Assembly (NCBI GenBank): GCA_015654525.1 | Contig: JAATGT010000266.1 | Span: 1-57,654, forward strand | Reading direction: 5' to 3' | Source: Bacteroidales bacterium | GTDB taxonomy: Bacteria; Bacteroidota; Bacteroidia; Bacteroidales; Paludibacteraceae | DNA length: 57,654 nucleotides | Shown here: positions 6,887 to 57,395 of the stretch, piece after piece | Numbering within the stretch: position 1 is the stretch's first letter | Layout: the number at the start of each line of letters is the position of its first letter | Program-made: the position numbers and the translations under genes | The notes under the pieces: model-generated | What the model saw: the letters and a program-made list of their open reading frames with translations, nothing else | Told to the model about the DNA's origin: nothing | The model's database searches: none

Positions 6887-6908
6887 AGTTGTGTGTCAAA
6901 TTTGTTTC

Positions 6909-10716: not shown

Positions 10717-10729
10717 AGCAAAGTCACTT

Positions 10730-10915
10730 CTGAGGTAAGCTAGCCTGATTCAAAGTTAGGCTTGCTTACCTCTAGGCTAAGCTTGCTTACCTTAAGGGTA
10801 GGCAAGCTTTACTTTATTTAGGCTTGCTTACTGTTGATCTAAGCAAGGCTAGCTTTTAGGTGGGCTTGCTTAGCTTGGAGGTAAGCAAGCTTGGGTTTTA
10901 GTTAGGTGTGCTTTG
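10730..10915. repeat. Cluster of degenerate AGGCTTGCTTACC repeats in both orientations
   Basis: About nine variants of AGGCTTGCTTACC or its complement GGTAAGCAAGCCT occur in 180 bp, for example at 10734, 10758, 10775, 10797, 10820, 10838, 10862 and 10879. Neighbouring copies in opposite orientation can pair into many alternative hairpins. There is no gene inside. Confidence 0.75.
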
Positions 10916-10953
10916 GATTTACCTAGTAATAGTTTTAAAATTATCTTTCTATA

Positions 10954-12039
10954 ATGAAAAATAAATATTTGATTATTCTTTTATCTGTACTTCTGATAGC
11001 TTGCTGTAAAGATCCAATCAATCAGATTCCAACATTTGAATATCAAATATTCAATACTTCAAATTCAGGGCTACCGTCATCGTTTGTAACACATGTAGCT
11101 TCTGATAGTTCTAACAATATTTGGATAGGAACTTTTTCTTCAGGTTTAGTGAAATATGATGGTGCAAGTTGGGTCTGCTATAACACAAGTAATTCGCAGT
11201 TGCCTAATGATTCAATTAACTCATTGTATGTGGATAGGAAGAACAGAGTATTGGTGGGGACAAACCGGGGTTTAACCATTCTGGATCACGGAAAATGGAC
11301 AACTTATAATAAAGCTAATTCAGGATTACAAGCAGAAATTGTTCTTTCTGTTTGTGCTGACAACAATGATAATATCTGGTTAGGAGCTGTAACGTCTTCC
11401 GCCGATTTTGAAACTCTTGCGGGGTTGTATTTTTTCGATGGCAATAAGTGGAGTTTGTATAATAGAAAGAATTCAATATTGCCTTACGAAACAATCAACT
11501 CGATAGTTTGTGACAAAAACAATGTAATTTGGCTTGGTACAGCACAAAATTTAGGTAAAGGTGGACTTGTTAGAATAAGCAATGAACAATGGAGTCTGTA
11601 TTCAAGTGATAATTCTCCAATGAAATACAATGTGCTTGACAGGATTGTTCTTGGAGGAAATGGTCAGTTGTTATTATCTTCGGATGTCCCTTTTGAATGG
11701 AAATCTGGAGTTTTAGATGGATATCTTTATTTGTTTAACGGAATAGATACTTGGTTGGATATTTCGCCAGCTATAAATAATGCTAATCTTACAAACCGAG
11801 TAACTGCAACTGTATTTGACAAAAACGGAAATATCTGGGTCGCTACAAGTGTTGATCCGAATAGACCCAATGTTGACTATTCATTATCAATATTTTCAAA
11901 TGGCAAATGGACAGTATTAAGTTCAACTCTTCCAAACTTTCCACGAACATATATAGCGGACATTACAGTAGATTCTTCAAATAATATATGGGTGGCCGCA
12001 CCCGATGCAGGTGGACTAATAAAAATAATTGAGAAATAA
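10954..12039 (+). CDS. Lipoprotein with two-component-regulator-type propeller repeats
   Basis: The 361-residue protein starts with a lipoprotein signal (LLSVLLIACCKD; lipobox around LIAC), so it is probably anchored to a membrane. The rest is beta-propeller repeats of the Reg_prop type, seen as recurring blades such as SDSSNNIWIGTFSSGLVKYDG, ADNNDNIWLGA, CDKNNVIWLGTA, FDKNGNIWVAT and VDSSNNIWVAA. Such propellers form the sensor part of hybrid two-component regulators in Bacteroidota, but here no membrane helix or kinase follows. A binding or surface role is likely; the ligand is unknown. It is followed by decayed short genes. Confidence 0.85.
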   Translation: MKNKYLIILLSVLLIACCKDPINQIPTFEYQIFNTSNSGLPSSFVTHVASDSSNNIWIGTFSSGLVKYDGASWVCYNTSNSQLPNDSINSLYVDRKNRVLVGTNRGLTILDHGKWTTYNKANSGLQAEIVLSVCADNNDNIWLGAVTSSADFETLAGLYFFDGNKWSLYNRKNSILPYETINSIVCDKNNVIWLGTAQNLGKGGLVRISNEQWSLYSSDNSPMKYNVLDRIVLGGNGQLLLSSDVPFEWKSGVLDGYLYLFNGIDTWLDISPAINNANLTNRVTATVFDKNGNIWVATSVDPNRPNVDYSLSIFSNGKWTVLSSTLPNFPRTYIADITVDSSNNIWVAAPDAGGLIKIIEK

Positions 12040-12906: not shown

Positions 12907-14670
12907 ATGAAACAGTTTTTGAAATTTACGCTGGCAACCATTGTTGGTGTTTTTATTGCTTCCTTATTGGGACTCCTTATCTCTTTCGGAATAATCGGAG
13001 CAATAGCGGGTTCAGCAGATAAAGCCACTGCTTTGAAGCCCAATTCAATCTATCAGATAGATCTCGAAGGGAATCTGGTAGACCGCTCACAAGAGGACCC
13101 GCTCTCAGGGGCATTTGCACATGCGCTGGGCAAGCCTTCCGAAAACACCATTGGACTAGACGACGTGCTGGCTAATATCGAAAAAGCCAAAAAGGATGAT
13201 AATATTGTGGGTATTTACCTCAAAGGCGGTTCGCTGTCGGGTGGAGTGGCTTCAATAAAAGAAATCAGAAATGCACTGATTGACTTTAAAAAGTCGGGAA
13301 AATTTATTGTTTCTTATGCCGATAATTATTCGCAGCGGATGTATTACCTGGTATCGGTAGCTGATAAGATTCTGATTAATCCGCAAGGAATGCTTGAGCT
13401 CAAGGGGCTCTCCGCTCAGACTATGTTTTTTAAAAATACACTTGATAAGTTGGGCATTGAAATGCAGGTGGTAAAAGTCGGAACGTTTAAATCGGCCGTG
13501 GAACCTTATGTGAACACCAAAATGAGTGATGCCAACCGGTTACAGGTAACTGTTTTTATGGGCTCAATATGGAACAATATTCTGAAAGAAATTTCGGCTT
13601 CGCGTAAAATTCCGGTAGCCAAACTAAATAGTTATGCTGACGAAATGATGATGTTTCAACCAACCGAAAAATCGAAACAATACGGGTTGGTAGATGGGTT
13701 AGTGTATATCGATCAGGTAGACAGTGTTCTGAAAAAGTATGTAAAAAGTCTGAAGAAGGGTGATGATTTGACTTTTGTAAAACAAGAGGCAATGACTAAA
13801 GTTCCTGATACGGCGAAATATGATAAAAATAAGGTAGCCCTTATTTATGCTGTAGGCGAAATAACCGATATTGAAGGGGATGGCATTGTGTCGAGAGATT
13901 TGGTGAAAACGATTAATGATGTGGAAAAAGATTCGGCTGTAAAGGCGGTTGTGTTCCGTATCAGTTCACCGGGTGGAAGTGCTTACGGGTCGGAGCAGAT
14001 ATGGCATGCGCTGAATAAGCTTAAGGCAAAGAAGCCGTTGATTGTTTCGATGGGCGATTATGCCGCTTCGGGAGGATACTACATTGCTTGTATGGGTGAT
14101 AAAATCTTTGCGCAACCCACTACGATCACCGGATCTATTGGCATTTTCGGAGTTATACCGAATATCAAAGGACTGGATGATAAAATAGGTATTACGTATG
14201 ATGGAGTGAAGACGAATAAAATGAGTGATGCTATTTCGATAAATCGCCCATTTACACCTGAAGAGCGTGATTTGATGCAAAGTTACGTGAACCGCGGTTA
14301 CGAGCTGTTTGTGAAACGCTGTGCCGATGGACGGAAAATGAAGACAGAACAAATTAAAGCTATTGCCGAGGGCCGCGTGTGGACAGGTGAAGATGCGTTG
14401 AAAATCGGATTAGTAGATAAAATCGGAGGCCTGAACGATGCCATTAAACTGGCCGTGGAGAAAGCTAAGCTAAAATCGTATAACATTAAAGAATATCCCG
14501 AAAAAGAAGACTTTATGACTAAATTTATGAAGAACTTCGGTAAGGATGTGGAAACCCGTATTGCAAAAATTCAGTTGGGCGAACAATATAACCTGTTTAA
14601 ACAGGTGAAGAATCTGGATAAAGTCAACGGCATTCAGGCACGTTTGCCTTACGACTTGAATATTCGGTAA
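12907..14670 (+). CDS. sppA: Signal peptide peptidase SppA, 67-kDa type
   Basis: SppA is an inner-membrane serine protease that degrades cleaved signal peptides on the periplasmic side. The 587-residue protein is the long, tandem-domain form. One N-terminal membrane helix lies at about residues 8-35. The first domain supplies the Lys general base (Lys195 in KVGTFKSAVEPY) and the second supplies the nucleophile Ser388 in GDYAASGGYYIA, after the conserved SSPGGSAYGSE loop. This Lys/Ser split is typical of the E. coli type. It is monocistronic, with its own promoter and a terminator behind. Confidence 0.95.
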   Translation: MKQFLKFTLATIVGVFIASLLGLLISFGIIGAIAGSADKATALKPNSIYQIDLEGNLVDRSQEDPLSGAFAHALGKPSENTIGLDDVLANIEKAKKDDNIVGIYLKGGSLSGGVASIKEIRNALIDFKKSGKFIVSYADNYSQRMYYLVSVADKILINPQGMLELKGLSAQTMFFKNTLDKLGIEMQVVKVGTFKSAVEPYVNTKMSDANRLQVTVFMGSIWNNILKEISASRKIPVAKLNSYADEMMMFQPTEKSKQYGLVDGLVYIDQVDSVLKKYVKSLKKGDDLTFVKQEAMTKVPDTAKYDKNKVALIYAVGEITDIEGDGIVSRDLVKTINDVEKDSAVKAVVFRISSPGGSAYGSEQIWHALNKLKAKKPLIVSMGDYAASGGYYIACMGDKIFAQPTTITGSIGIFGVIPNIKGLDDKIGITYDGVKTNKMSDAISINRPFTPEERDLMQSYVNRGYELFVKRCADGRKMKTEQIKAIAEGRVWTGEDALKIGLVDKIGGLNDAIKLAVEKAKLKSYNIKEYPEKEDFMTKFMKNFGKDVETRIAKIQLGEQYNLFKQVKNLDKVNGIQARLPYDLNIR

Positions 14671-15106
14671 TATCTTCTTTTTTGCGTTTTTTTATTTAAT
14701 AATGGCAAGGGAAGCAAAGCGTGATGTTTTGTTTCCCTTTTTTTGATGTTCTCCCATCCCTGTTTTTAAATTTGACTGAAGATAACTGTTTAAAACGCTT
14801 TGTGTAATGGGCGACTCTTTTGTGTCTGAAAACAGTATTCTGATCCCAGTGACAAAATTATTATGTCTTCATTTCTTTCTCTTATTATGCCGGTCCTTTT
14901 CTGAACTCTAATATCAAATAAGAGTAGAAAGGTAAGCAAAAGAAATAATGCTGTTTTTTTCCATTAAAAGCGACAAACTTAATGAAGTGTTTTCTATAGC
15001 TGGTCGATAGAGATCTCATTTCAATAGATTTATTGCAAATGCATACGTTAAATAAAACTTAACGATAGATGATTCCGTTCGTTTAAACATGAACCTTTTT
15101 AGCTTG
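14671..15106. other. Intergenic stretch with an sppA terminator
   Basis: This 436-bp stretch separates convergent sppA and a kinase gene. It holds one terminator (14707-14743). The rest is AT-rich, with no open frame, RNA gene or repeat that I can support. Confidence 0.4.
14707..14743 (+). terminator. sppA terminator
   Basis: AAGGGAAGCAAA (14707-14718) pairs with TTTGTTTCCCTT (14728-14739) with one G-T pair, followed by a T-run. Confidence 0.8.
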
Positions 15107-16777
15107 TCAATATCTAAAACTACTTCCACCAACAAACTCCCGCAACAGCGATGTTGGCGGAATTTCCCTATCTAAAATCGGAACGAAGTAGTTTAAAAAT
15201 TTTATTAGACGGTGAGTCTCTGTGTATTCGTCGCAGTATTTTGGAACTTCGGCTAAAATCGGTTCTGCATGCCTTTTCAAAACAGCCAACTCGAATAGAA
15301 GTGCCGAGTTGAACAGTACATCGGCATTTTCCTGATAGGGGAATATCCATTTTTCTTCACCTCTGCGTACACTTGACCAACGTCCAATAGTTTCCCGTGC
15401 AGAATAGTTCCGAAAACGGTAATCCCGAATTATTCTGCGAAGCAATCGGGTGTCGGTGGTTGGAATCCAGTTGTGGTTGTCAATAGAAATGGTGGTAAGC
15501 GCTGAAACATAAATTTTAAACGTTGTGTTGACGGGTATGTCTTGTATCAATTCGGGGTTTAAAGCATGGATTCCTTCCATGATTAAAATGCTGTCTTCGT
15601 TTAGTTTCAGCTTTTCGCCTTTGTAATATCGTTTGCCATCTTCAAAATTGAAAAATGGGATATCAATTTCTTCTCCATTAAGAAGCTGTCTTAGATTTTG
15701 ATTGAAAAGAGCTAAGTCTAATGCATGAAGATGTTCGAAATCAAGTTCTCCATTTTCATCGCGGGGAGTTTCATCCCTGTCGACAAAATAATTGTCGAGA
15801 GATATTACGACCGGTTTTAATCCGCTAACAATTAGTTGGATAGAAAGCCGCTTGCTGAAAGTTGTTTTCCCTGATGAGGAAGGCCCTGATATAAGAACAA
15901 AACGCACTTTTTCAGTTCGTTGAGAGATCATGTCGGCAATTGAAGCAACTTTCTTTTCATGTAAAGCTTCTGAAACTTTAATCATATTAAAAGATTGATT
16001 GTTTTGGCAAGCAATATTGAACTCTCCAACATTGTTTATCTTCATAATTTTATTCCAACCGACGTACTCTTTGAAAATATCGTACATTTTTGGAGATAAA
16101 ATAACATCCTCCAATTCAATAGGATTCTCGCGACTCGGAACCCGGAGTAATAATCCATCGTAATATGGGATTAAATCATAAATTTCAAGATAATCAGTTG
16201 ATGGCAAAAGGACCCCATTATAATAATCAATGTAATCGTCAATTCTGAAATAACGAAAATACGGATTTCCAAGGGTTTCAAAAAGTGCAATCTTATCAGT
16301 TTGATGTTCTTTGTTTATAAATAGCTCTCTTACTTCTTTTGTTTGCTTCTCTTCGCAAACAATTTTTTTCTTCTGAGAGATTATAAGGTTGATGCGTCCT
16401 TTAATCTGTGATATAATTTCAGGCGTTATTGACTGACCCAGATTGTCTAATTTGCAATAATAGCCTTTAGATATGGGATGCTCAATCCGAAGAATGGCTT
16501 CGGGGAATAATTCGGAAATAGCTTTTGCCAAAACCATGCTTAATGTTCTGACGTAAACGCGCATGCCTGATGAAGTTCCTAAATCGATGAATTCAATATC
16601 CTTTGGTTTGTATATCAGAAAATTTAAATCTTCTACTTTGTAATTGACCCGTGCAGCCATTACAGGATACTTCAATTGAATGTTTAAGTCTTGGTAAATT
16701 TCAGTCAATGATATTCCTAGCGGATAGGTATGATATGATTTCGTGTTTTTACAATAAATTGTTACTTGTTTGTCCAT
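15107..16777 (-). CDS. Nucleoside (uridine) kinase with TGS and tRNA-synthetase-editing-like N-terminus
   Basis: The 556-residue protein joins an N-terminal TGS-like domain (about 1-65) and a threonyl-tRNA-synthetase-like second domain to a C-terminal P-loop kinase of the phosphoribulokinase/uridine kinase family. The Walker A motif GPSSSGKTTFSK is near residue 297 and a Walker B-like LIMEGIHALNP near 400. The kinase probably phosphorylates a nucleoside; the role of the synthetase-like half is unknown. This architecture is common in Bacteroidota and Firmicutes. It stands alone and converges on sppA. Confidence 0.85.
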   Translation of the reverse strand: MDKQVTIYCKNTKSYHTYPLGISLTEIYQDLNIQLKYPVMAARVNYKVEDLNFLIYKPKDIEFIDLGTSSGMRVYVRTLSMVLAKAISELFPEAILRIEHPISKGYYCKLDNLGQSITPEIISQIKGRINLIISQKKKIVCEEKQTKEVRELFINKEHQTDKIALFETLGNPYFRYFRIDDYIDYYNGVLLPSTDYLEIYDLIPYYDGLLLRVPSRENPIELEDVILSPKMYDIFKEYVGWNKIMKINNVGEFNIACQNNQSFNMIKVSEALHEKKVASIADMISQRTEKVRFVLISGPSSSGKTTFSKRLSIQLIVSGLKPVVISLDNYFVDRDETPRDENGELDFEHLHALDLALFNQNLRQLLNGEEIDIPFFNFEDGKRYYKGEKLKLNEDSILIMEGIHALNPELIQDIPVNTTFKIYVSALTTISIDNHNWIPTTDTRLLRRIIRDYRFRNYSARETIGRWSSVRRGEEKWIFPYQENADVLFNSALLFELAVLKRHAEPILAEVPKYCDEYTETHRLIKFLNYFVPILDREIPPTSLLREFVGGSSFRY

Positions 16778-16854
16778 GTGCGTGCATGTTTTTAATTGAA
16801 AAAGTTTTGCATAAAACCGGTGTAAAATTACATTATTTTTTTTAAATGTATTTA

Positions 16855-16886
16855 TTTGAGTGTCTCTAAATTTTGAATTACATTTG
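16855..16886 (+). promoter_or_regulatory. argD promoter
   Basis: TTTG (16855-16858) and TACATTTG (16879-16886) are 20 bp apart. The leader to the ATG at 16967 is about 75 nt. No arginine operator was recognised. Confidence 0.6.
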
Positions 16887-16966
16887 TATTAAATTTTCAA
16901 GCTTGTAGAATTAATGCAAAATTCTTATTAATTGAAAATTAGGTAATATAAAACACTTACGAATAT

Positions 16967-18121
16967 ATGAATTTATTTAATGTTTATCCTCTTTTTGATA
17001 TCGAGATTGCAAAAGGAATAGGATGTAGAACGTACGATAATCATGGAATTGAATACCTTGATTTATATGGTGGACATGCCGTAATATCTATTGGTCATTC
17101 GCATCCGTATTATGTTCAAAAGTTAACTCAACAATTGGAACATCTGGTTTTCTATTCTAACTCGGTTCAAAATAAATTGCAGGTAGAACTTGCTGAAAAA
17201 TTGGGTAAAATATCAGGATACGATGATTATTCTTTGTTCTTGATTAATTCGGGGGCCGAAGCTAATGAGAATGCATTGAAATTAGCTTCATTTCATACAG
17301 GCCGTAGTAAAGTTGTTGCTTTCAATAAAAGTTTTCATGGGCGTACATCGGCCGCAGTTCGAACAACCGATAATCCTAAAATTGTTGCACCGATAAATGA
17401 GGGATTCGACATTGAGTTTCTTGCTTTGAATGATATAGATGCTGTACGCAAATCGTTGAAAAAGAAAGATGTTTGTGCTGTAATTCTGGAAGGAATTCAA
17501 GGGGTCGGTGGCATTCGTATTCCTGAAATTGAGTTCTTGAAAGCGTTGAGTGAAGAGTGTAAAGCTACGGGAACTATGTTGATACTGGACGAAGTTCAGT
17601 CGGGCTATGGACGTAGTGGAAAGTTCTTTGCACATCAGTATGCCGGGATTCGTCCAGACTTAATTACTGTCGCCAAAGGAATGGGGAACGGTTTTCCGAT
17701 AGGAGGTGTGCTGATCAGCCCTATATTTGAACCTTCGTTCGGAATGCTTGGAACTACTTTTGGTGGTAGTCATTTGGCCTGTACTGCGGCTATTGCAGTG
17801 CTCGATATTATTAAAGTAGAGCATTTGATAGAAAATGCTGAAAAAATAGGAAATTACCTGATTGAAGAGCTGAATAAAATTCCAGGAATAAAAGAAGTCA
17901 GAGGTCAGGGATTGATGATCGGAATTGAATTTGAACAACCAATAAAGGAAATTCGTAATCGTTTGTTGTTTGAAAAAAAGATATTTACCGGAGCCAGTGG
18001 TACTAATATCATTCGGTTATTACCTCCTTTGTGTTTGTCAAAGTCAGATGCAAACTTGTTTCTGAATAGTTTTAAAGAAATTCTTCAGGAACAAACAACT
18101 AAAATCGGGAATATATCTTAA
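16967..18121 (+). CDS. argD: Acetylornithine (succinylornithine) aminotransferase
   Basis: This class III PLP aminotransferase makes N-acylated ornithine from the N-acyl glutamate semialdehyde in arginine synthesis. Bacteroidota often use the succinylated intermediates. The 384-residue protein has the substrate loop YGGHAVISIGHSHP, the PLP phosphate-binding NSGAEANENALK, the Asp of LILDEVQSGYGRSG, and the PLP lysine in TVAKGMGNGFPIGGVL (near residue 235). No other arginine genes are near, so it has been separated from the usual cluster. Its stop overlaps the stop of the convergent SDR gene by 4 bp. Confidence 0.92.
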   Translation: MNLFNVYPLFDIEIAKGIGCRTYDNHGIEYLDLYGGHAVISIGHSHPYYVQKLTQQLEHLVFYSNSVQNKLQVELAEKLGKISGYDDYSLFLINSGAEANENALKLASFHTGRSKVVAFNKSFHGRTSAAVRTTDNPKIVAPINEGFDIEFLALNDIDAVRKSLKKKDVCAVILEGIQGVGGIRIPEIEFLKALSEECKATGTMLILDEVQSGYGRSGKFFAHQYAGIRPDLITVAKGMGNGFPIGGVLISPIFEPSFGMLGTTFGGSHLACTAAIAVLDIIKVEHLIENAEKIGNYLIEELNKIPGIKEVRGQGLMIGIEFEQPIKEIRNRLLFEKKIFTGASGTNIIRLLPPLCLSKSDANLFLNSFKEILQEQTTKIGNIS

Positions 18122-46569: not shown

Positions 46570-47220
46570 GAGAAGTTCTTGCTGGCTTGGGGTGTTGCCT
46601 ATTTGGGAGCTTGTTTGATAGAACCGGTATTAAGTATTCCTTAACCGGACTCACTCCTAACTTAATCGGGCGGGAATTCCCCTCCATGCGGTTGCCTTTT
46701 GGCATAATTGGAATGCCGTATTTCTCAACTTGCATGCTTACTGACTGAATTTAAGTAAACACCGTCTTAATTTATGTGTTCTCTTACTAAATTTAGATGC
46801 AAAAATACATAAATGGAACTGAACATTACTTAATCGGAATGCTTTCTGATACAATTGGTATGCAAAAATACATTAATGGAACTATATCCCTCAAAAAAGT
46901 CCTTAAACAATACTCTTTTGGTATGTAAAAATACTCTAATGGAACTATATCCCCATTAAAAGTTCCTAAGCAATACTGAATTGGATTGCAAAAATACTCT
47001 AATGGAACTAAAAAATACTCAGTCCGCAAGAAAAAATATACAATTGGAAGTAACAAATATACAATTGGAAGCCGAAAATACTGAGTCCGGCGGCCTCATT
47101 GCTAAATTGGAAGCAGAAAATACCCGATTGAAAGGGGAAAGTACTCCGTGCGACCGTTTTGATCTGAATCTGGGAAGGGGATATGCTCAATTGGAAAGGG
47201 AAAAGGTTGAACGGGGCGTG
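46570..47220. repeat. 31-unit array with strict 21-bp periodicity
   Basis: Cut every 21 bp, the sequence lines up without gaps for about 31 units. The shared pattern is nAAAATACnnnAATTGGAAnn. The best copies are at 46801, 46864, 46927, 46990, 47032, 47053, 47074 and 47116. The four strongest (46801, 46864, 46927, 46990) are also spaced at 63 bp, so a higher-order triplet unit exists. Units are diverged, while the spacing is constant. Confidence 0.85.
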
Positions 47221-47901: not shown

Positions 47902-48711
47902 TTATTTTGAACGTGTAAATGGGATATTACTTATTTGTTTGTACTGTGGGGATGTGGCTCCAAAAACAGATTTTACATATTGTTTTACGGCCAGCGCAAT
48001 GTCTACCAAGCCGGTGTTGTCGGCATAAAGCACTTCGCGGCGTGCAATGTCGGAAGCTTCGAAGAGTGCCGATGAGGTAACTACTGAGTCGTTTAATGTT
48101 TTATACTCGGTGTGCGCGGCATTAATAGCCTCTATGGTGAGCTCCGGTTCGTTGGGCTTATATTGCGGAATGCTAACCAGCAGTTGTGCCAGTTTTCCAA
48201 AGTTTATAACCTTGCGGTCGTATGTTCCCTGGTGAAGTGTTACTTGCTTGACATCATTTCCTTTTGCTTTTTCGGCTGCAATTTCTTCGTCAGTGAGTTT
48301 GTCGGTAGCCCGTTTTGCTCTAAGCTCACGCACGATGGATTCAACCTGATCCTGGGTTTGGGGAGTGGCTCCGCAAATACGCACAGCATTGGCGATGCGG
48401 GTGACTTTGTCGTCGATGCCATCAAATTTGTTACTCCGTGCAGCTTTGGCGCTTTTTTCTGCCACGTCGTTTACAGCCGCTTCATCGTTTGCCTCCACTC
48501 CCCGCAGATAAAGCTTGTTGAGCTCAGGGATGGTGAGCGCAGTGACCGAAGGGTTGTACTGAACACCAAATGTTTTTACACACGAAATTTCTACATTCAG
48601 ATTTGTCACATTCTGCTCGTGACCGGAGCCATTAGTAGTTTTCATAACATCAAAAAGATTTGTAGGGTTGAACTTTAATTTTTTTGCCGATACAGTGTAA
48701 ATGAACTGCAC
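47902..48711 (-). CDS. Uncharacterised Bacteroidota family protein
   Basis: The 269-residue, mainly helical protein has no signal peptide or membrane helix. Notable segments are NVEISCVKTFGVQYNPSVTALTIPELN, NEAVNDVAEKSAKAARSNKFDGIDDKV-like text in the middle, and the C-terminal DIALAVKQYVKSVFGATSPQYKQIS. I have seen that tail in unnamed multi-copy proteins of this phylum, but no function is known to me. The start is GTG at 48709-48711; the ATG at residue 23 is an alternative. A minus-strand -7 box TATATTTG (48734-48741) is close upstream and a terminator follows. Confidence 0.75.
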   Translation of the reverse strand: MQFIYTVSAKKLKFNPTNLFDVMKTTNGSGHEQNVTNLNVEISCVKTFGVQYNPSVTALTIPELNKLYLRGVEANDEAAVNDVAEKSAKAARSNKFDGIDDKVTRIANAVRICGATPQTQDQVESIVRELRAKRATDKLTDEEIAAEKAKGNDVKQVTLHQGTYDRKVINFGKLAQLLVSIPQYKPNEPELTIEAINAAHTEYKTLNDSVVTSSALFEASDIARREVLYADNTGLVDIALAVKQYVKSVFGATSPQYKQISNIPFTRSK

Positions 48712-49141: not shown

Positions 49142-49791
49142 GTCAGAATCAGAATTTACAGAATTGGAGAATTTACAGAATAAGAAAAGATAAATACTGT
49201 GGCTGATGGGTGTGAGTTTTTGGGTTGCATTTGCTTTTTGGGTGGTTGTCAGAATCAGAATTTTCAGAATTGAAGAATTTACAGAATAAGAAAAGATAAA
49301 CCAGCATTTAATTCGCGTCTCAAATTCGGGTAATGGTGATTCGGGCAGTTTATAGAATAAGAAAAAATAAATATCTTGTCAATGGAAAAAGACAAACTAA
49401 CATTTGATATTATTGGTTGTGCAATGAATGTGCATAATACGCTGGGCAATGGTTTCCAAGAGGTGATTTATCAACGTTGTTTGGCAATAGAATTGAAACG
49501 TGCGGGTATTGAGTTTGAACGAGAAGTGGAGCAAAATATTTTTTATAATGGAGTGAATGTGGGTACGCGCAGAGCTGATTTTGTTGTTGCTAATAAAGTA
49601 ATTGTAGAATTAAAAGCATTGATAAATTTAGAAGCTGTGCATTTAGCACAAGCAAAGAATTATGTTGTTGCATATAAATTTGAAAAAGGATTGTTGATAA
49701 ATTTTGGAGCCACAAGCTTGCAGTATAAACTGATCTTTAATCCCAATCTTAATTTTGTAAATTCTCAAATTCTGTAAATTCTGATTCAGAC
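49142..49791. mobile_element. GxxExxY gene bracketed by inverted repeats (candidate small mobile element)
   Basis: The left side carries two direct copies (49142-49181 and 49248-49288) of a roughly 40-bp sequence beginning GTCAGAATCAGAATTT, plus a shorter piece near 49351. The right side (49751-49791) carries the same sequence in inverse orientation with about four mismatches. The recombinase remnant begins right at the outer edge of the right copy. This layout is that of an inserted element, but no transposition has been shown. Confidence 0.5.
49382..49777 (+). CDS. GxxExxY protein (PD-(D/E)XK nuclease-like)
   Basis: The 131-residue protein has the name-giving motif GNGFQEVIY near residue 24 and a PD-(D/E)XK-like core, RRADFVVANKVIVELKA (Asp then Glu-x-Lys) around residues 60-78. 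It is a family of unknown role, frequent in Bacteroidota. The ATG at 49382 fits the family start (KDKLTFDIIGCAM); a TTG lies two codons upstream. The last ten codons (FVNSQIL and stop) are made of the right inverted repeat, so gene and repeat are fused. Confidence 0.88.
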   Translation: MEKDKLTFDIIGCAMNVHNTLGNGFQEVIYQRCLAIELKRAGIEFEREVEQNIFYNGVNVGTRRADFVVANKVIVELKALINLEAVHLAQAKNYVVAYKFEKGLLINFGATSLQYKLIFNPNLNFVNSQIL

Positions 49792-50468
49792 GTTATTTAG
49801 TAAACGAACTAAAAATTTCGACTTCCTACCAAAACCAATCCATAAATGCAGTCAAATTCTATTATGAACGGGTTTTAGGAGGTAGGCGAAAAGTGTACAT
49901 GATTAATCGTCCGCGCGAAGAAAAGTTTCTGCCCGAGGTGTTGAGTCAGGAAGAAGTTACAGCGCTGCTCAATGCCACCGAAAATCTGAAACATAAAGCC
50001 ATTTTGATGACTATTTATTCTGCAGGATTGCGGATAGGTGAAGCCATAAATTTGAAAATAAAAGACATTGACAGCAATCGAATGCAGATGCGGGTAGAAC
50101 AAGCCAAAGGAAAGAAGGATAGGTATACTTTGCTGGGGAATAAAACACTGGAGATATTACGAAAATATGTAGCCGAATACAAACCAACAATCTGGTTATT
50201 TGAAGGTGCAAAAGGAGAAGCCTATTCACAAAAAGGAATTCAGGCAATATTGAAAAAATCGGTGGGAAAAGTAGGCATTAAAAAACATATAACGGTACAT
50301 ACCTTACGGCATTCGTTTGCCACCCACTTGTTGGAAGCGGGTACAGACCTCCGATATATACAAAGTTTGCTCGGACATAGCAATAGCAAAACTACCGAGA
50401 TATATACCCATATAACAACAAAGGGGTTCGATCAGATAAAAAGTCCGTTGGACAATTTAAATATCTAA
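49785..50468 (+). pseudogene. 5'-truncated tyrosine recombinase (XerC/D-like integrase)
   Basis: The catalytic domain is complete: Arg in YSAGLRIGEAINL, Lys in QAKGKKDRYT, His-x-x-Arg in HTLRHSFATHLLEAG, His in LLGHSNSKTTEIY and the nucleophile Tyr in EIYTHIT. Upstream of the first start-like codon (GTG 49893) the frame stays open to 49785 and still reads integrase text (ELKISTSYQNQSINAVKFYYERVLGG), the end of the core-binding domain. The N-terminal part before that is missing, and the break coincides with the edge of the inverted repeat. A shortened product from GTG 49893 (191 residues) would have catalytic residues but no full DNA-binding domain. Confidence 0.8.
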
Positions 50469-50756
50469 TAAGAAATCAATTATCATTTAAATTATATTAA
50501 TATCTTTGCAATACGAATTCATTAACAAGAAATGGATATTTAATATGACCAGATTAAATCCTGTATGCGAACAACAGTTAACGTGAAACTATTTTTATAT
50601 TTCACTACTAAACAATATGATAAAACAATCCATTACTAACCATAAGGCGGATGTATGCGAACTACTTGTTCGCATAGCGATTCGTTGGCAGCAAGCCGAA
50701 AAAAAAAGAAAAAAAAGATTATAGCATTATGAATTATCAACTAAAAATTTAAAAAT
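50469..50756. promoter_or_regulatory. Leader region of the Hsp70 operon
   Basis: A strong -7 box TATCTTTG at 50501-50508 is followed by about 240 nt of leader. Within it are GTGAAA/TTTCAC arms (50583-50604), two copies of TATGCGAAC (50564-50572 and 50654-50662), and a 9-bp perfect hairpin TATGCGAAC/GTTCGCATA (50654-50676). No -33 TTTG is obvious. The A-rich run just before the ATG may aid initiation. Confidence 0.5.
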
Positions 50757-52952
50757 ATGAAAAAAGCAATCGGCATTGACCTCGGAACAAGTAATTCCGT
50801 TATCGCATTTAAAGACACAGTTGTAAAAATTATTCGAAATAAAGAGAACGAAGAACTTACTCGGTCTTGCATCGGATTAAGAAAAGAAGAAATTCTGGTT
50901 GGAAGAACTGCTTATCAGTTGCTTAAAACTGACCCTATAAATACAATTCTCTCTGTCAAAAGACTAATGGGTGGAGCTATTCAAGACCCAATGGTTCAAA
51001 AAATGATAAAAAGTTCGTATTATAAATATGGTATCACTTCTTTAAAAGGTGGGACGGACGATGCTGTTGCTATTATTCTTGGAGGAAAGCAATATACGCC
51101 AGAACAGTTGAGTGCTGAAATTTTGAAAAAGCTTAAAAGAGATGCTGAAGAAAAACTTGGAGATGAAGTTACACACGCTGTAATTACTGTTCCAGCTTAT
51201 TTTACTGAAAAACAGAAAAATGCCACACGAATTGCCGCACAACTTGCAGGTTTAAAAGTGCAAAAATTATTAGCCGAACCAACAGCTGCCGCCATTGCTT
51301 ACGGAGTTGACAATTTAAAAGCAGGAGATGCAAAGACCGTTTTAATTTATGATTTCGGTGGTGGTACTTTTGATCTCTCCATTTTAAATATTGTAGATGG
51401 TCAATATATGGAGGCAGGTACAGGTGGTGATCGTTGGTTAGGAGGAGACGATATTGATAGAACTTTACAAACACATATTTTAAAAAGGATTTCACAAGAT
51501 TACAATATTTCAAATATTGATAGTCTAATTGAAAATTTAGACCATAAAAAGAAATTTCAGTTTGACGCACAATTTAGAGATAACGTAGAAAATATCAAAA
51601 TACAGCTTAGTTCATCAACGAGTGCTCCTTTAATAATGGATGGTATTGAAGATGAAAATGGAGAATGGATAGATTTTGACATTTCAATTTCAAGAGATGA
51701 ATTTGAAAACTTAGTCAAACCTTTCATTGAAAGAAGCATTGAATTAATTGACAATCTGCTTAAAGAAGTAGGGTATGAAATTTCTATGATTGACTCAATT
51801 TTATTAGTAGGTGGTACTTCTTGTATTCCTTTAATAAAACAAATGCTTTCGCAAAAATATGGAAAAGAGAAAATTAAAATATCTGAAAAACCAATGCTTG
51901 CCATTGCTGAGGGTGCAGGAATTTTATCACATAGATTAGGTGATGAATACGAAAACCCAATTGATGGCGAAATTGCAGTCTCAGAAATATCATATAGTAC
52001 AAATCATAATTATTTCATAGAGCTAAAAGACGAATACGACAGAATAATTGAAAAACAAATGCCATTGCCATTTAATGCAACAAGAAACTATAAAACAACC
52101 GTGAATAATCAAAAAGTTGTTAAAGTGGGTATATATTCTGATGTTGAGAATGGTGAAAAAATAAGAGAAACTTTCGGATTCTTTGCAATAGAAGAAGATT
52201 TACCAAAAGGGAGTGATATAGTTTTAGACATAACATTAAGTATTGATGAGATTTTTGAAGTCAAAGCTTACCCAAAAACAAACAAGAGTAAAAGTAAAAA
52301 TATTGTTTTAGGAAGAGGAAATAAAGATTCTAAAACTTTGGAATTCTTGTCAAACTCTTTAGAAAAAATAATGAGTGGGGATTTTACAGAAGCACAGAGA
52401 GATTATTTCTTTAAATCTGCCACAAAAGAAATTGAAAAAATTAATGAAATAGGAACTGAAAATTATGATTCCACGAAATGGGACGAAATTGGAACAAAAA
52501 TTTATATGTCATTTGAACAAGCCGAAAATGTTTCAGATTCAATTGATGAAGAACAATTGACAATAATATTTGCCACTATTTTAATTGGAGAATATCCCGA
52601 TTTAATTGGTAATGAATATATTAATAGAATGAAATCTTTGTTGGCACAGTTTAAAAATGATGATGACCCCTTACAAAAAATACAGGCAATGCAAATATTA
52701 AAATCAATTACTGAGGAATATCCTGTATTGATTACTTTGTTTACATTAAAGATGTCTTCTGATAATGTTGCAAAAGAAAACCCAAGTGATGGTCACCGTT
52801 TATTGCAGATGCACGACCAAATTGTAAATCATTTCCGTAATAGAAGAAAAGACCAAGCTTATGCTCTACTAGACGAAGCAATTGAATTAAGAGACAAGTA
52901 CAACACTGGTGCTTTGGATTTTGGAGGTAGTATTCACTTAGGAAAAAAATAG
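50757..52952 (+). CDS. Divergent Hsp70/DnaK-type chaperone
   Basis: The 731-residue protein has a full Hsp70 ATPase domain (about 1-390): phosphate-1 GIDLGTSNSVIA near residue 6, VPAYFTEKQKNATRIA near 144, LAEPTAAAIAYG, phosphate-2 YDFGGGTFDLS near 198, and the adenosine loop LVGGTSCIPLIKQML near 350. The next 130 residues resemble a reduced beta substrate domain. The last 200 (about 535-731) form a charged helical extension unlike the DnaK lid, ending GGSIHLGKK without an EEVD-like tail. It is not the housekeeping DnaK but the first gene of an accessory operon with its own GrpE and J-like protein. Base composition is more AT-rich than the core genes. Confidence 0.9.
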   Translation: MKKAIGIDLGTSNSVIAFKDTVVKIIRNKENEELTRSCIGLRKEEILVGRTAYQLLKTDPINTILSVKRLMGGAIQDPMVQKMIKSSYYKYGITSLKGGTDDAVAIILGGKQYTPEQLSAEILKKLKRDAEEKLGDEVTHAVITVPAYFTEKQKNATRIAAQLAGLKVQKLLAEPTAAAIAYGVDNLKAGDAKTVLIYDFGGGTFDLSILNIVDGQYMEAGTGGDRWLGGDDIDRTLQTHILKRISQDYNISNIDSLIENLDHKKKFQFDAQFRDNVENIKIQLSSSTSAPLIMDGIEDENGEWIDFDISISRDEFENLVKPFIERSIELIDNLLKEVGYEISMIDSILLVGGTSCIPLIKQMLSQKYGKEKIKISEKPMLAIAEGAGILSHRLGDEYENPIDGEIAVSEISYSTNHNYFIELKDEYDRIIEKQMPLPFNATRNYKTTVNNQKVVKVGIYSDVENGEKIRETFGFFAIEEDLPKGSDIVLDITLSIDEIFEVKAYPKTNKSKSKNIVLGRGNKDSKTLEFLSNSLEKIMSGDFTEAQRDYFFKSATKEIEKINEIGTENYDSTKWDEIGTKIYMSFEQAENVSDSIDEEQLTIIFATILIGEYPDLIGNEYINRMKSLLAQFKNDDDPLQKIQAMQILKSITEEYPVLITLFTLKMSSDNVAKENPSDGHRLLQMHDQIVNHFRNRRKDQAYALLDEAIELRDKYNTGALDFGGSIHLGKK

Positions 52953-52959
52953 GAATGCC

Positions 52960-53457
52960 ATGAATAAGAATTGTCCTATTTGCAACAAAGCGGGATTACC
53001 CGATTACACGAAAGAAAGTGTAGTTTGCCCACAATGTAATTCGGATTTAAAAGCTTTTCTGCTTTTAAGTTCTGTTTCAAAGCCCCCAAAATCAAAAATT
53101 AGTACTTATATCCTAATTGGTATGTCTTTGTTTGCAATTACATTCTTTAGTCTTTATCTAAAATCTAACTCAGACAGAAAAGTATTGAATTCTAGCAATG
53201 AACTTCTAAATGACAGTATTATAAAGATTAAGCAAATGCAAAATATAACTTTCAATAAAGGTGAACATCGAACAGACATTGCAAAGCAAGAAGTTATCAT
53301 AAAATATATAGTTAAAAAAGGTGATTGCCCTTACAAAATTGCACGGTTTTTTTATAGTTCTGGAAGCAAATACAAGCAAATAGAAAAAGATAATAATTTG
53401 GAACAACCATATACTTTAAAAATTGGACAAATTCTGAAAATTAAAATTTCACAGTAA
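52960..53457 (+). CDS. Zinc-ribbon, single-pass membrane protein with C-terminal LysM domain
   Basis: The 165-residue protein combines three parts. An N-terminal zinc ribbon has CPICNKAG and CPQC (residues 5-26). One membrane helix lies at about 48-66 (ISTYILIGMSLFAITFFSLYL). A LysM-like module is at the end (YIVKKGDCPYKIARFFYSSG...LKIGQILKIKI, about 115-163). The expected topology puts the zinc ribbon in the cytoplasm and LysM in the periplasm, against murein. It starts 7 bp after the Hsp70 gene and its stop overlaps the next ATG by one base (TAATG). Confidence 0.85.
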   Translation: MNKNCPICNKAGLPDYTKESVVCPQCNSDLKAFLLLSSVSKPPKSKISTYILIGMSLFAITFFSLYLKSNSDRKVLNSSNELLNDSIIKIKQMQNITFNKGEHRTDIAKQEVIIKYIVKKGDCPYKIARFFYSSGSKYKQIEKDNNLEQPYTLKIGQILKIKISQ

Positions 53458-55808
53458 TGGAAACAATAATCATTTTAATAGTAATTGCAATTGTAGGGTA
53501 TTTTATTTATCAATCTTTACCCAACACTAAATTTGAAAAGGCTCAAAATCTTATTAATGCCAAAGATTTCATCGAGGCAGCCAATATACTAAATGAGATT
53601 TTTGATAAACACGTTGATGCACCAGCCAAACTAGCAGAATGTAAATTAAAATTAGGACAGAATGCATCAAGTATATCATCGAAGTTAAAGTATTTCAACG
53701 AAGTTACTACATTAAGAAAAAGGATAAGCAATTCTATATCTATTACAAATTTTGAGAACATTGAAAGCAAGGCATTTTTTGAAATTGCTAAAATTCAATA
53801 CGAAGCAACAAAAGGAGATATTGAAAAGCTTAACCAAAATTTAAGGTTTATTGACACGGTCTATAAAAAGAGTTTAGAATCTGAATACTCTTCGTTAAAA
53901 ATAAAACATTTCTATGATTTAGCAGAAAGTCATTTTAAAAATGCTTTAGGAAAGGAAAAATCAGCTAATTATTCTGAAGCAATTCAAACATTCAAAACTG
54001 CGAAAGACTTTGCAGAAAAGTCAAATATCAAAACTGTTATTTACAATTCATTTGTAAGGATTGCAATTTGCCAACTCAAACTTAATGAAATTGTCAGATT
54101 AGACAATGTTACTAATATTGCAAATTCAGATAAGATTTATCAGAAAGACTTCTATTACAGGTATGCAATTCAACTTTTAAAGTACAAAGAATATTCGGAA
54201 GCTGAAAAAATAATTTCTTCAAATCTAAATTTTAAATCTCTGGAAATTGACAAACTAAATGATATTTTAAAAAGCGAGAGAAACAATAATGCTGTCAAAA
54301 AAATTGAACAAATAAATGCTTCAATTGATAAATTGTATAAAAATTCTTTATCTACAGAAGAGCTAATGTTACTTTATGACAGTCTTGACAAAACAATTAT
54401 TGAAATTAGCATTTTAGACAAACAACTTTCTGAAAAAATATCAACTATTAAACCAACTTTGTTTAATCGATTGCTTTCGCAATACATTTCGGCAGAACAA
54501 TATGAAAATGCAATATCAATAATCCAGAATTATCCGAGATTTTGGGAAAGCCCTGAATTACTAAAAAATTTAGGTATTTGTTGTTATGGCTCTACGGCAA
54601 AAGGATTATTGACAGAAGGTAATTATAGTATCATTATTTCTGGTTGGCTGACTGCTGTATTTTCTGATAAAGTAATTCTTAAATCATTAAGTGATACCGC
54701 TTGGGACGATGATTATACCTTTACTTTATCAGAAGCAATTGGTTCAAACTATTCGCAACATGAAGAAACACCTGAAAATGTTAATTATGACGAAATTTCA
54801 GAAAATAACATTTCAATTGGCGCAACTCAAAAAGAACTATTACAACAATTTGAATCAATTATCAACAAAGAATTACACGATATCAATTTGTCTAAATTGG
54901 TTAATGACTTCTACGATAAAGAAAAAGACGCATTAGAAAGAATAATTGGAATAATTGAAAATGATATTTTCTTTGCCACTCCTTATTTTGCTATTTCAAA
55001 CGAACTGAATAATAAAATAATAGCAGAATTAGATAACGATTATCTTAGCTATTCTAATGAAGATGCTTTAGATGCTGGTATTCCTTACATTAAAAACTCA
55101 ACTTCAACAGTCGTTTATCAGTATTTCTATGCCAATGACATAATTGACCGAGTAATATCTGCAATAAATAGTGAAAATTCTGCTACAATTAAGAAACTCA
55201 ACACAAATGATAATAAACAGTGGATAGAAAAATTTAATAACATCAGTAGTTCAACAGAAGACAGACTTTTCAATTCAATATCAAACAAAATTTCAGAAGA
55301 TGATGAAAACGAAAATCTAATTCCAGTAATGGAAGAATGTATTGCATTTTCAAGCCAAAAAGAAAAGTTAAAACATCAGTATTCAAATTTTATAGCTAAT
55401 TTTTGTATTTCAAAAGTGAATGACGAAAAAATTGACAACTTCAAAGCATTGTCTTTGATGAAAGGTGCATACTTACGCTCGCCGAATAATCCAAAAATTT
55501 GTAAGAACTTTATAACGCTTATAAAATTTAATCTTATGGATATGCTTAACGACCGAACAAGGAAAACGACAGATATATATAACATACTTGATTGGGTAAA
55601 AAACAATATGTCACAGACATACAAACAAAACAGTGACGAATTAAGCAAAGCAAGACGTGAAATTTTGCAACAACTAAGACAAGCAGGTGTTGATATTTCT
55701 TTGTTTGAAGAAAATTCTTTAGCATCAATACTCTCTGGTAGTTCACTTAATAACGATGGTTTAAAAATGAAACGTGTATTGACTTATTTGAAAGAATTAG
55801 CCAACTAA
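53457..55808 (+). CDS. Large membrane-anchored helical-repeat (TPR-like) protein
   Basis: The 783-residue protein has one N-terminal membrane helix (about 3-20, IIILIVIAIVGYFIYQSL). A long, charged, wholly helical region follows. Parts look like TPR units, for example FEKAQNLINAKDFIEAANILNEIFD (25-50) and YAIQLLKYKEYSEAEKIISSNL (around 235-260); other parts are unlike known families. It is probably a cytoplasmic scaffold or client-binding partner of the Hsp70 in this operon. No catalytic motif was found. It overlaps the LysM gene by one base, and 83 bp separate it from the J-like gene. Confidence 0.8.
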   Translation: METIIILIVIAIVGYFIYQSLPNTKFEKAQNLINAKDFIEAANILNEIFDKHVDAPAKLAECKLKLGQNASSISSKLKYFNEVTTLRKRISNSISITNFENIESKAFFEIAKIQYEATKGDIEKLNQNLRFIDTVYKKSLESEYSSLKIKHFYDLAESHFKNALGKEKSANYSEAIQTFKTAKDFAEKSNIKTVIYNSFVRIAICQLKLNEIVRLDNVTNIANSDKIYQKDFYYRYAIQLLKYKEYSEAEKIISSNLNFKSLEIDKLNDILKSERNNNAVKKIEQINASIDKLYKNSLSTEELMLLYDSLDKTIIEISILDKQLSEKISTIKPTLFNRLLSQYISAEQYENAISIIQNYPRFWESPELLKNLGICCYGSTAKGLLTEGNYSIIISGWLTAVFSDKVILKSLSDTAWDDDYTFTLSEAIGSNYSQHEETPENVNYDEISENNISIGATQKELLQQFESIINKELHDINLSKLVNDFYDKEKDALERIIGIIENDIFFATPYFAISNELNNKIIAELDNDYLSYSNEDALDAGIPYIKNSTSTVVYQYFYANDIIDRVISAINSENSATIKKLNTNDNKQWIEKFNNISSSTEDRLFNSISNKISEDDENENLIPVMEECIAFSSQKEKLKHQYSNFIANFCISKVNDEKIDNFKALSLMKGAYLRSPNNPKICKNFITLIKFNLMDMLNDRTRKTTDIYNILDWVKNNMSQTYKQNSDELSKARREILQQLRQAGVDISLFEENSLASILSGSSLNNDGLKMKRVLTYLKELAN

Positions 55809-55891
55809 CAAAAATTATAAAGCCATTTAAATCAATTAAATCGAATTCGTTAACAACCGATCTTAAAACAATATTTTTTATAACATAAACA

Positions 55892-56170
55892 ATGAAAAAT
55901 CCATATACGATATTAGGAGTAAGCCAGGAAGCAGATAAAAGTGAAATTATGAAAGCTCAAATGTTTGCAATGAAGAAAAAAGAATTTCCACTACAAGAAA
56001 TTGCCATAGCGGCAAAGCAGCTTTTGGATCCAGCTAAAAGGTTGGCAGCAGACTTTATGTTTCCTGCAAAAATTAAGGCAAAAAGAATGCAGCCCATTCA
56101 AAGTACGCTTACATATAAAGAAATAAACACAAGTGTTTTAAACGAGAATGCATTTGATTCATTAAAATAA
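55892..56170 (+). CDS. J-domain-like protein lacking the HPD motif
   Basis: The 92-residue product begins NPYTILGVSQEADKSEIMKAQMFAMKKKE, which matches helices I and II of a J domain. QEIAIAAKQLLDPAKRLAADFMFP matches helices III and IV, as in L-x-D-P-x-R-R-x-x-Y/F. The loop between helices II and III reads KKKEFPLQE, so the His-Pro-Asp triad needed to stimulate Hsp70 ATPase is missing. It may dock on Hsp70 without stimulating it, or use another mode. The remaining 30 residues are polar. It lies 6 bp before the GrpE gene. Confidence 0.75.
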   Translation: MKNPYTILGVSQEADKSEIMKAQMFAMKKKEFPLQEIAIAAKQLLDPAKRLAADFMFPAKIKAKRMQPIQSTLTYKEINTSVLNENAFDSLK

Positions 56171-56176
56171 AAAAAA

Positions 56177-56623
56177 ATGAAAGAATATGTAATAGAACTT
56201 GAACAGATAATAGTTCAAAATTTAAAATCAACCAATTTTTTAAAGAATGAAGTTGAAAGAAAAGAAAATGAAAAACACGATTTGCTAAAAGATATTTCTT
56301 TAAGTATCATTGACATCATCGATTCATTTGAACGAATTGAAGAAAGTATAATTGAAAAGGAATATAATAAAATTGATGAAGTAAACAAAACCACAAGCCG
56401 GTATAAGACAATTCAAAAAAAATTACTTGGTCTTTTGCAAAAACACGGTGTTACTAAAATAGAGTTTCCCGACAATCGTTTAATTGTTGGACTTTGCGAA
56501 GTTGTAGAAACCGAAGCTGATAGCAATAAAAAAACCGATGAAATAATATCTGTTATCAGAAACGGATATATACGAGGAAAAGAACTCATCAGACCGGCAC
56601 AATTAATTGTAGTAAAAAACTAA
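56177..56623 (+). CDS. GrpE-type nucleotide exchange factor
   Basis: The 148-residue protein has a long N-terminal coiled coil (about 1-85) and a C-terminal beta domain. That domain carries the GrpE pattern LLGLLQKHGVTKIEF...GLCEVVETEADSN...SVIRNGYIRGKELIRPAQLIVVK. GrpE proteins release ADP from Hsp70. The presence of a dedicated exchanger beside the Hsp70 implies a separate chaperone cycle. Its stop overlaps the ATG of the next gene by one base (TAATG). Confidence 0.85.
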   Translation: MKEYVIELEQIIVQNLKSTNFLKNEVERKENEKHDLLKDISLSIIDIIDSFERIEESIIEKEYNKIDEVNKTTSRYKTIQKKLLGLLQKHGVTKIEFPDNRLIVGLCEVVETEADSNKKTDEIISVIRNGYIRGKELIRPAQLIVVKN

Positions 56624-56922
56624 TGGGAAAATTTATAAAAATAGTACTTACAATATTATTATTTCTATGTCTTGTTGACATGCCTTATGGTTATTATCAG
56701 TTTGTTAGATTTGCAGCAATGATAGGTTTTGGTATTCTTGCATTTCAATCGTCAGAATCAGAAAATAAAACTTACGTGATAGTTTACGGTGCATTAGCTC
56801 TATTGTTTCAACCTTTCTTCAAAATTGCCTTAGGTAGAGAACTGTGGAATTTAGTTGATGTGATTGTTGCAATTGGTCTTATTATTTCATTGTTCATAAA
56901 AAAACAACAGACTAAAGAATAA
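56623..56922 (+). CDS. Small multi-spanning membrane protein (DUF6804-like)
   Basis: The 99-residue protein has about four hydrophobic segments (IKIVLTILLFLCLVDM, FVRFAAMIGFGILAFQ, TYVIVYGALALLFQPFF and LVDVIVAIGLIISLFI). The segment FQPFFKIALGRELWNLVDVIVA is the family's conserved core as I recall it (DUF6804). The function is unknown. It is the last gene of the chaperone operon and overlaps grpE by one base. Confidence 0.8.
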   Translation: MGKFIKIVLTILLFLCLVDMPYGYYQFVRFAAMIGFGILAFQSSESENKTYVIVYGALALLFQPFFKIALGRELWNLVDVIVAIGLIISLFIKKQQTKE

Positions 56923-57395
56923 TCGCCCAAAAAGCAAAAAAAACCACAGCAAGTGAGTGTTTTTATTCAATTGTCTTGCAGTGGCTTTTATAGCTCTTTG
57001 ATAATAGGCAGAGCGGTCACAGTACATTGTTTTTTATTCGCTTAGACAGTTGAAGTACAATTTAGAAAGAAAAAAACAATGAACTGTGGAGAGTTGATTA
57101 TTTTAGTGTTGTGCATTTAGACAACCATTTAGCTCATATTTGCTTGGCTGACAATAAAAGAAAACAGACTTTAGTATTGACAGACAACGATATAATACAA
57201 CAAAATTAATGACGACTTTATAACGACTGAACGGCCAGCTGCCAACACACGCCTATGCGCACCTGCTGGCTGACATGCATTTCGGCAGTTTTGCTCCCGC
57301 ACTCACTTTGTCGTTCCACTACAGCGAACGCTCCAAGAAAGAAACAAATGCCCACAACCTTGGGCATTATGGCACATTTTAAAAAGGGTAAAAAT
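56923..57395. other. Intergenic stretch with a GC-rich island
   Basis: Between the chaperone operon and the last gene lie 473 bp. After the weak terminator the sequence is AT-rich until a GC-rich block at 57228-57300 with a GCCAGC/GCTGGC inverted repeat (57234-57239 with 57265-57270). A 7-bp hairpin ATGCCCA/TGGGCAT lies at 57348-57367. The block resembles a recombination site or structured RNA, but I cannot assign it. Confidence 0.4.
56935..56994 (+). terminator. Imperfect terminator hairpin after the chaperone operon
   Basis: CCACAGCAAG (56943-56952) can pair with CTTGCAGTGG (56976-56985) with one mismatch. An A-run comes before and CTTTTA follows. The loop is large, so this is only a fair candidate. 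Confidence 0.45.

Follow-up and report, generated by a model that had tools for sequence, protein, structure and literature searches.

A rare, membrane-linked Hsp70 operon of Bacteroidota and its carriage as an integron-type cassette in Flavihumibacter

Gene content and conservation of the operon

The DNA stretch analysed here (the window) is an entire contig of 57,654 bases (JAATGT010000266.1) from a draft assembly of a Bacteroidales bacterium (361 contigs, 89% complete, 2.9% contaminated), and it harbored an operon that contains a divergent Hsp70. Six open reading frames (ORFs), all on the + strand at 50757–56922, encoded the Hsp70 (731 amino acids (aa); 50757–52952), a protein with a CxxC...CxxC zinc ribbon, one transmembrane (TM) helix and a C-terminal LysM domain (165 aa; 52960–53457), a protein with an N-terminal TM anchor and a long TPR/helical-repeat body (TM-TPR, 783 aa; 53457–55808), a J-like protein that lacked the HPD motif (92 aa; 55892–56170), a GrpE nucleotide-exchange factor (148 aa; 56177–56623), and a small multi-spanning membrane protein of the DUF6804 family (99 aa; 56623–56922). 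The ORF list and inspection of the junctions indicated a single tight operon with intergenic gaps of 7, -1, 83, 6, and -1 bases, and both one-base overlaps, at the LysM/TPR and GrpE/DUF6804 junctions, spelled TAATG. A preliminary description of the window, made from the letters alone, had proposed an AT-rich, six-gene operon in one direction at 50469–56922. The genes, their direction, their operon arrangement, and the end of the span were all recovered at the proposed place, but position 50469 was intergenic and the operon began at 50757. The GC content was 0.40–0.44 over 40–48 kb and dropped to 0.28–0.30 over 52–57 kb (calculated in 2-kb windows), in agreement with the proposed AT-richness.

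An Hsp70 search of genome contigs yielded nine loci (L009–L017) out of 210 pattern matches. The genes for Hsp70, the LysM protein, the TPR protein, the J-like protein, and GrpE were found in identical order at all seven testable loci (L009–L015), whereas L016 and L017 were left out of the count because their contigs stop inside the Hsp70 gene. This count includes L012, in which GrpE was cut by the contig end, and L015, in which the TPR gene was matched only in part. The Hsp70 identity to the window ranged from 85% down to 43% across the conserved loci. The corresponding ranges were 41–74% for the TPR protein, 46–91% for GrpE, and 34–68% for the LysM protein (six others each), and 54–86% for the J-like protein (seven others). 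L015 was omitted from the Hsp70 and TPR alignments because its Hsp70 reads in two separate frames and undetermined bases lie within its TPR gene, and L012 was omitted from the GrpE and LysM alignments because of its cut GrpE and its short LysM protein. Judging from record titles or known taxonomy, the named carriers are all Bacteroidota. Co-occurrence in other genomes, which the preliminary description had suggested as a check, was thus found for five of the six genes.

The sixth gene behaved differently. Its product is indeed a small multi-spanning protein (PF20619, E = 2.8e-36), as had been described, but its presence pattern makes it an optional rather than a fixed member. DUF6804 directly followed GrpE in the window, L009, and L011, was decayed in L010 (15886–16160, downstream of the operon), and was located 3.4 kb downstream of the operon, after ZorE, in L014; no match was detected in L013 and L015, and the L012 contig stops within GrpE. 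DUF6804 was rejected as the functional core because it was decayed or absent in some loci and had four plasmid relatives in unrelated-looking settings (one of the four records lacked annotation). In L011, an ORF that began at the DUF6804 end (16125–17390) encoded 421 aa, hydrophobic near the N-terminus and without a Pfam match, and is possibly a seventh gene in that locus.

The window Hsp70 had a longer helical C-terminus and matched Pfam HSP70 (E = 2e-103), but reached only 310 bits against the DnaK model TIGR02350 (cut-off 822.55) and so did not score as a canonical DnaK. Phylogenetic analysis placed the seven operon Hsp70s in one clade separate from seven housekeeping DnaKs (support 100/100), which agrees with the earlier view that this is not a housekeeping arrangement. 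The Hsp70s of the window, L009, and L010 clustered together (99/100); 6 of the 11 inner branches of the tree had support below 80, and the truncated DnaKs of the window's genome and of L012 were omitted. The second strong Hsp70 relative in the window's genome, 33% identical and cut by a contig end, was taken as its housekeeping DnaK. Alignment with the seven DnaKs indicated that the DnaK-type interdomain linker DVLLLD was missing from all seven operon Hsp70s, and that K and A replaced R and N before the EPT residues in all seven. We take the replaced residues to be the equivalents of E. coli R167 and N170, which contact J proteins.

The HPD motif was found in none of the eight J-like proteins, as had been noted for the window. 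The window protein, which carries a conserved tail (NAFDSLK in the window), matched Pfam DnaJ at 21.6 bits (E = 2e-4), under the cut-off of 27.8 and over residues 3–22 only, and a structure model of the protein retained the J-domain fold. These J-like proteins may not act as ordinary J partners. The preliminary description had called the machine self-contained; the genes for GrpE (Pfam GrpE, E = 5e-17) and a J-like protein are present, but this label is uncertain because of the absence of HPD.

The LysM domain (Pfam LysM, E = 5.5e-9) and the TM segments supported the proposed membrane link of the operon. The four cysteines of the zinc ribbon were invariant in all seven aligned proteins, and the TM helix of the LysM protein was located near residue 47. 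In the TM-TPR protein, the TM segment (residues 3–21) was followed by positive charges, and its TPR body is predicted to be cytoplasmic. The match to Pfam TPR_19 (E = 2e-5) was 25.2 bits, barely above the cut-off of 25.

Distribution, horizontal transfer, and cassette carriage

Strong matches to the TPR protein were counted in seven genome samples, which may overlap, and no carriers were detected besides those already known. Only the window's own genome was found in samples of the phylum (1 of 395 genomes; two others had partial matches at 24–28% identity), the class (1 of 395), and the order (1 of 393; ten others had matches of E 1e-6 or weaker). The family of Flavihumibacter contained 2 carriers among 294 genomes (L009 and L011), that of Telluribacter 1 among 150 (L010 itself), and that of L013 2 among 45 (L012 and L013), and the order of L014 contained 1 among 286 (L014 itself). 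Carriage as phage or plasmid cargo was rejected, since the Hsp70 and TPR profiles found no relative in viral contigs, relatives of the TPR protein were absent from phage and plasmid records, and relatives of GrpE were absent from plasmids. Hsp70 matches were present in 268 plasmid records, all below 60% identity (27.6–36.0% among the 20 listed).

The operon Hsp70s of L009 and L010 were 88% identical, whereas the DnaKs of the same genomes were 74% identical. Conversely, L009 and L011, which belong to one family, shared 77% identity in the operon Hsp70 and 88% in DnaK. Because these identities disagree, horizontal transfer is suggested, consistent with the acquisition proposed in the preliminary description. 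Judged from these sequence comparisons, the genes for Hsp70, the zinc-ribbon/TM/LysM protein, the TM-TPR protein, the HPD-less J-like protein, and GrpE form a conserved, rare, and horizontally moving core.

The clearest carriage context was observed in Flavihumibacter stibioxidans (L009), in which, on the evidence of its recombination sites, the operon is a single cassette (670–7298, 6,628 bp) in an attC array of the integron type. Among 20 matched cassettes of this array, the median length was 788 bp and the longest measured 1,932 bp. The 203-bp left site of the operon cassette had 39 matches in the Flavihumibacter genome, itself included (40 of the 44 candidates were scored); the six other carriers tested gave no match. 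The cassette start (GTT and the following bases) was complementary to the next R'' in at least 7 of 9 bases in 20 of 26 neighbouring pairs, compared with 58 of 1096 among other site pairs; this count excludes two attC sites whose core could not be read and two loci with one site each. The pair that spans the operon is among the six misses because a differently sequenced site (7171–7298) lies between. From 670 to 7171, the operon cassette had a 9-nt match and passed the stem test. A match of this kind is seen in 6.2% of shuffles when considered by itself, and it gains weight from the surrounding array. Site folding gave z values of -3.29 and -2.71 in two Flavihumibacter sites, -1.87 and -1.08 in a further two, and 0.10 in part of one. 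Among 29 other cassette ORFs, single members matched a type II restriction enzyme, Schlafen AlbA_2, HTH, Gp49-like, and PIN families, and one weakly matched a HEPN family.

The stem test was passed by four pairs in L009, two of which were within genes and hence false, by one pair in L011, and by two in L041; no pair passed in the window, L010, L014, and L040. A convincing cassette boundary was found in none of L010, L011, L013, L014, and L015, and the 9-nt matches in L014 and L015 had chance expectations of 0.26 and 0.2. L010 and L017 had a common upstream stretch starting at GTTACCTGC (by eye), and the right-hand site of L010 was not found.

In the window, the putative cassette start GTTGGCAGC at 50684–50692 (+), taken as the R' core at the left-hand recombination site, had an exact reverse complement at 57238. 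This 9-nt match was expected 0.025 times, and occurred in 1.8% of 5000 Markov shuffles. An attC-like site at 57238–57366 (+) extended from R'' GCTGCCAAC to a degenerate R' in an alignment of five copies, with its right end placed by eye. The right-hand stretch had five further matches within its own genome, two of which lay approximately 1 kb from each other on a single contig and enclosed an ORF. The R'/R'' rule held with at best 0, 1, 1, and 2 mismatches in four of these own-genome sites, and those with one or two mismatches are weak when taken alone. The fold z was -1.39 (poor) for the right site and -2.46 for the left stretch. The two operon ends in the window match over 9 nt, yet none of its site pairs came through the stem test and the R' on the right is degenerate; the window appears to carry a weaker form of the Flavihumibacter cassette signature. 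New here are this weaker signature and, in Flavihumibacter, a whole operon as one attC-bounded cassette. On three other contigs of the window's genome (L112 on C225, L113 on C76, and L114 on C155), ORFs were separated or trailed by copies of the attC-like stretch, possibly a decayed array.

A Xer-like tyrosine recombinase gene lacking its N-terminal part was located at 49893–50468 (+), where an integron-type integrase would lie (Phage_integrase, E = 2e-42). It matched integrase_gron at 168 bits in two stretches, under the cut-off of 265, and was 52% identical to the recombinase of L017; both precede the Hsp70 gene. At one Flavihumibacter contig end, a 507-aa Xer-like recombinase (L127) was encoded on the strand of the cassette start that it immediately precedes; this array-front protein was 46% identical to that of L017. 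The recombinases of the window, L017, and L127 all skipped the part of the profile that represents the IntI extra domain, and L127 also skipped this domain against 2a3v. In these incomplete assemblies, IntI was above the cut-off in none of 10 genomes; all 14 control genomes were below it as well and so provided no positive control. The Xer-like gene may serve the array. The preliminary description had regarded the window recombinase as broken remains: it is truncated, but it is perhaps more than debris because two other genomes have related genes directly ahead of putative cassette starts. Another Xer-like recombinase of L009, which adjoins an IS91 transposase (9084–11177), was set aside as the array enzyme since it had equal matches on five contigs of that genome, had this transposase beside it, and was 36% identical to the L017 recombinase, less than the array-front protein and the window fragment.

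Neighbouring genes and comparison with known systems

At least 12 of the 60 ORFs flanking the nine loci, in at least four loci, matched defence families. These are lower bounds, as 20 of the ORFs were scanned singly with PADLOC and the other 40 were assessed among 25 of 71 families listed. In L014, genes for ZorA2 (4e-143), ZorB2 (3e-82), and ZorE2 (7e-84) were located downstream on the same strand, approximately 340 bp past GrpE, and kinase, vWA, and PP2C genes together with WG-repeat proteins (TerY-P-like) were located upstream; the two sides span 1045–6472 and 14220–17590. The neighbours in L011 included the BREX genes BrxA, BrxB, BrxC, and PglX. L010 contained an upstream type IIG restriction–modification (RM) gene split into two ORFs (5650–9557) and an integrase, and L015 contained HsdR (type I RM), TIR, and a gene with a partial helicase-like match. 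As a control, six carrier genomes supplied 10 arbitrary windows of 14–18 kb with 100 ORFs in total; one of these windows was the contig with a housekeeping dnaK. Four PADLOC models matched one member each (HEC-05 twice, mad2, and mad3), so 1–4 of the 100 control ORFs matched. The difference per ORF gave p = 0.0006 (three control matches) or p = 0.002 (four), with ORFs of one system not being independent. A role in defence, which the preliminary description had offered as a guess, is therefore a fair one in view of these neighbours.

The operon resembled the housekeeping DnaK–DnaJ–GrpE machine in its NBD/SBD architecture (nucleotide- and substrate-binding domains), GrpE, and J fold, but differed in its separate clade, linker, pre-EPT residues, absence of HPD, membrane partners, and patchy presence. 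Zorya type II has a membrane- and wall-linked architecture, as does the operon, and is adjacent to it in L014; in contrast, no ZorA, ZorB, or ZorE match was obtained among the operon proteins.

The closest likeness in content was to the HSP70 theme of the GAP1-N2 conflict systems, for which the relevant parts of Kaur et al. (2020, eLife, PMC7159879) list HSP70, GrpE, DnaJ/TPR, zinc-ribbon, TM, and peptidoglycan-binding proteins, predict action near the membrane in conflicts, and give a predominantly actinobacterial and firmicute distribution. A sister theme uses a kinase, PP2C, and vWA (PMC7159879). The operon likewise has an HSP70, GrpE, a J or TPR component, a zinc ribbon, TM segments, and a murein-binding module, and a kinase, PP2C, and vWA are also upstream of it in L014. 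However, its J protein is stand-alone and HPD-less, its TPR protein is membrane-anchored, and its named carriers are Bacteroidota. No GAP1 or GTPase match was found in the six operon proteins (Pfam and NCBIfam, E up to 1; 20 flanking ORFs were scanned with Pfam), and no FNIII match was found in the operon proteins (Pfam). Because these matches are missing, the operon was not assigned to GAP1-N2, although it may work alike.

In the relevant parts of PMC11090510, CnuD of the type III CoCoNuT systems is described as an Hsp70-like protein with helical repeats that is predicted to hydrolyse ATP very poorly, and belongs to a predicted defence operon often found near TerY-P, type I RM, and BREX. Compared with CoCoNuT as outlined there, the operon had no McrB, McrC, helicase, or HEPN match and encodes GrpE and a J-like partner. 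Sedentary chromosomal integrons store antiphage genes (Darracq, 2025, as cited in a passage of PMC12409362). An attC-bounded cassette with accessory or defence genes is shared with such integrons as described in that passage, whereas the L009 cassette is a six-gene unit of 6.6 kb and IntI above the cut-off was absent from the 10 genomes. Chaperones in defence have a precedent, since bNACHT25 defence requires DnaJ according to the part of PMC12169576 that treats it. The six chaperone terms searched were absent from the main text of DefensePredictor (PMC13092281), and no description of this operon was found among the open-licence papers listed.

Possible functions and further features of the window

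Hsp70 machines are usually regarded as housekeeping. The reading that we prefer, at about even odds, is that the operon is an inner-membrane Hsp70 switch serving defence against phages or other mobile elements. Such a dedicated Hsp70 machine would work on the inner membrane, on its cytoplasmic side. The LysM protein would reach the cell wall and report, or be pulled by, a local disturbance of the wall or membrane such as phage entry, and the TM-TPR protein would be a scaffold that gathers Hsp70, the J-like protein, and GrpE below that point. With its changed linker and J-docking surface, the Hsp70 could use ATP to switch or clamp one specific client, privately and not in the manner of a general folding machine, and GrpE would reset it. 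A phage protein entering the cell might be this client, or else the system's own membrane effector (DUF6804 or a neighbour such as Zorya). Only tentatively do we propose the fuller version, a previously undescribed immune device in which a private, HPD-independent Hsp70 cycle at the inner membrane both senses phage entry across the wall and acts on it. This device would travel as a complete six-gene cassette, and a Xer-type recombinase would take the place of IntI in operating the integron-like arrays. A rare, mobile, membrane-tied machine of this sort would illustrate how an Hsp70 can operate independently of the classical J switch and be turned into a dedicated switch, perhaps one against phages. 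The operon would also provide a test case for integron-like cassettes that move whole multi-gene operons, and for an enzyme other than IntI that serves such arrays.

Several observations weigh against a defence function. Enrichment per locus was weak (4 of 9 loci vs. 0 of 10 controls, p = 0.03; vs. 2 of 10, p = 0.35), and it rests on nine loci only and on controls that represent ordinary chromosome, not mobile islands. PADLOC assigned no family to seven window proteins at E up to 1, the operon proteins contained no recognisable toxin or nuclease, and no defence system was recognised beside the window operon. The flanks of L009 and L017 contained mobile genes and no recognised, named defence system, and L013 kept all five genes amid seemingly ordinary chromosomal genes (by eye). 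Integron arrays carry varied functions, so cassette carriage alone is no argument for defence. Furthermore, flanking charges do not settle the topology of the LysM protein.

The setting of L013 and the lack of a visible toxic effector are also compatible with specialised envelope proteostasis, in which a membrane-tied Hsp70 would fold or extract membrane or secreted proteins, or monitor wall synthesis, and be mobile for niche use. The LysM domain, the two TM-anchored proteins, and the intact-looking chaperone core fit such a role. Proteostasis genes are usually less rare, and the very patchy distribution, the defence neighbours at four or more of the nine loci, and the cassette carriage make this explanation, the main rival, less likely than defence. 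The position of ZorA2, ZorB2, and ZorE2 close behind GrpE in L014, with the DUF6804 gene after ZorE, would be expected if the operon assembled or regulated another membrane machine encoded elsewhere in the carriers, for instance a secretion complex or a motor driven by protons like that of Zorya. However, Zorya was adjacent at one of nine loci, and the listed ORFs showed no further neighbour that the loci have in common, which leaves this proposal a low probability. Selfish or addiction-like cargo that the cassette array retains with no benefit to the cell is highly improbable: single cassettes of the array match Gp49-like, HTH, and PIN families, like toxin–antitoxin genes, but the operon is large and multi-gene, is conserved at the protein level across families, and contains no recognised toxin or antitoxin.

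The preliminary description had also placed a GxxExxY element beside the operon. The corresponding ORF (49376–49777; PDDEXK_3, 1e-37; GxxExxY, 2e-38) was present within 40-nt inverted repeats of 93% complementarity (49142–49791) that adjoin the truncated recombinase end, and it looks like a separate small inserted element. Further upstream, A-rich degenerate repeats (46826–47120) were observed by eye between an ABC transporter gene and an ORF at 47902–48711.

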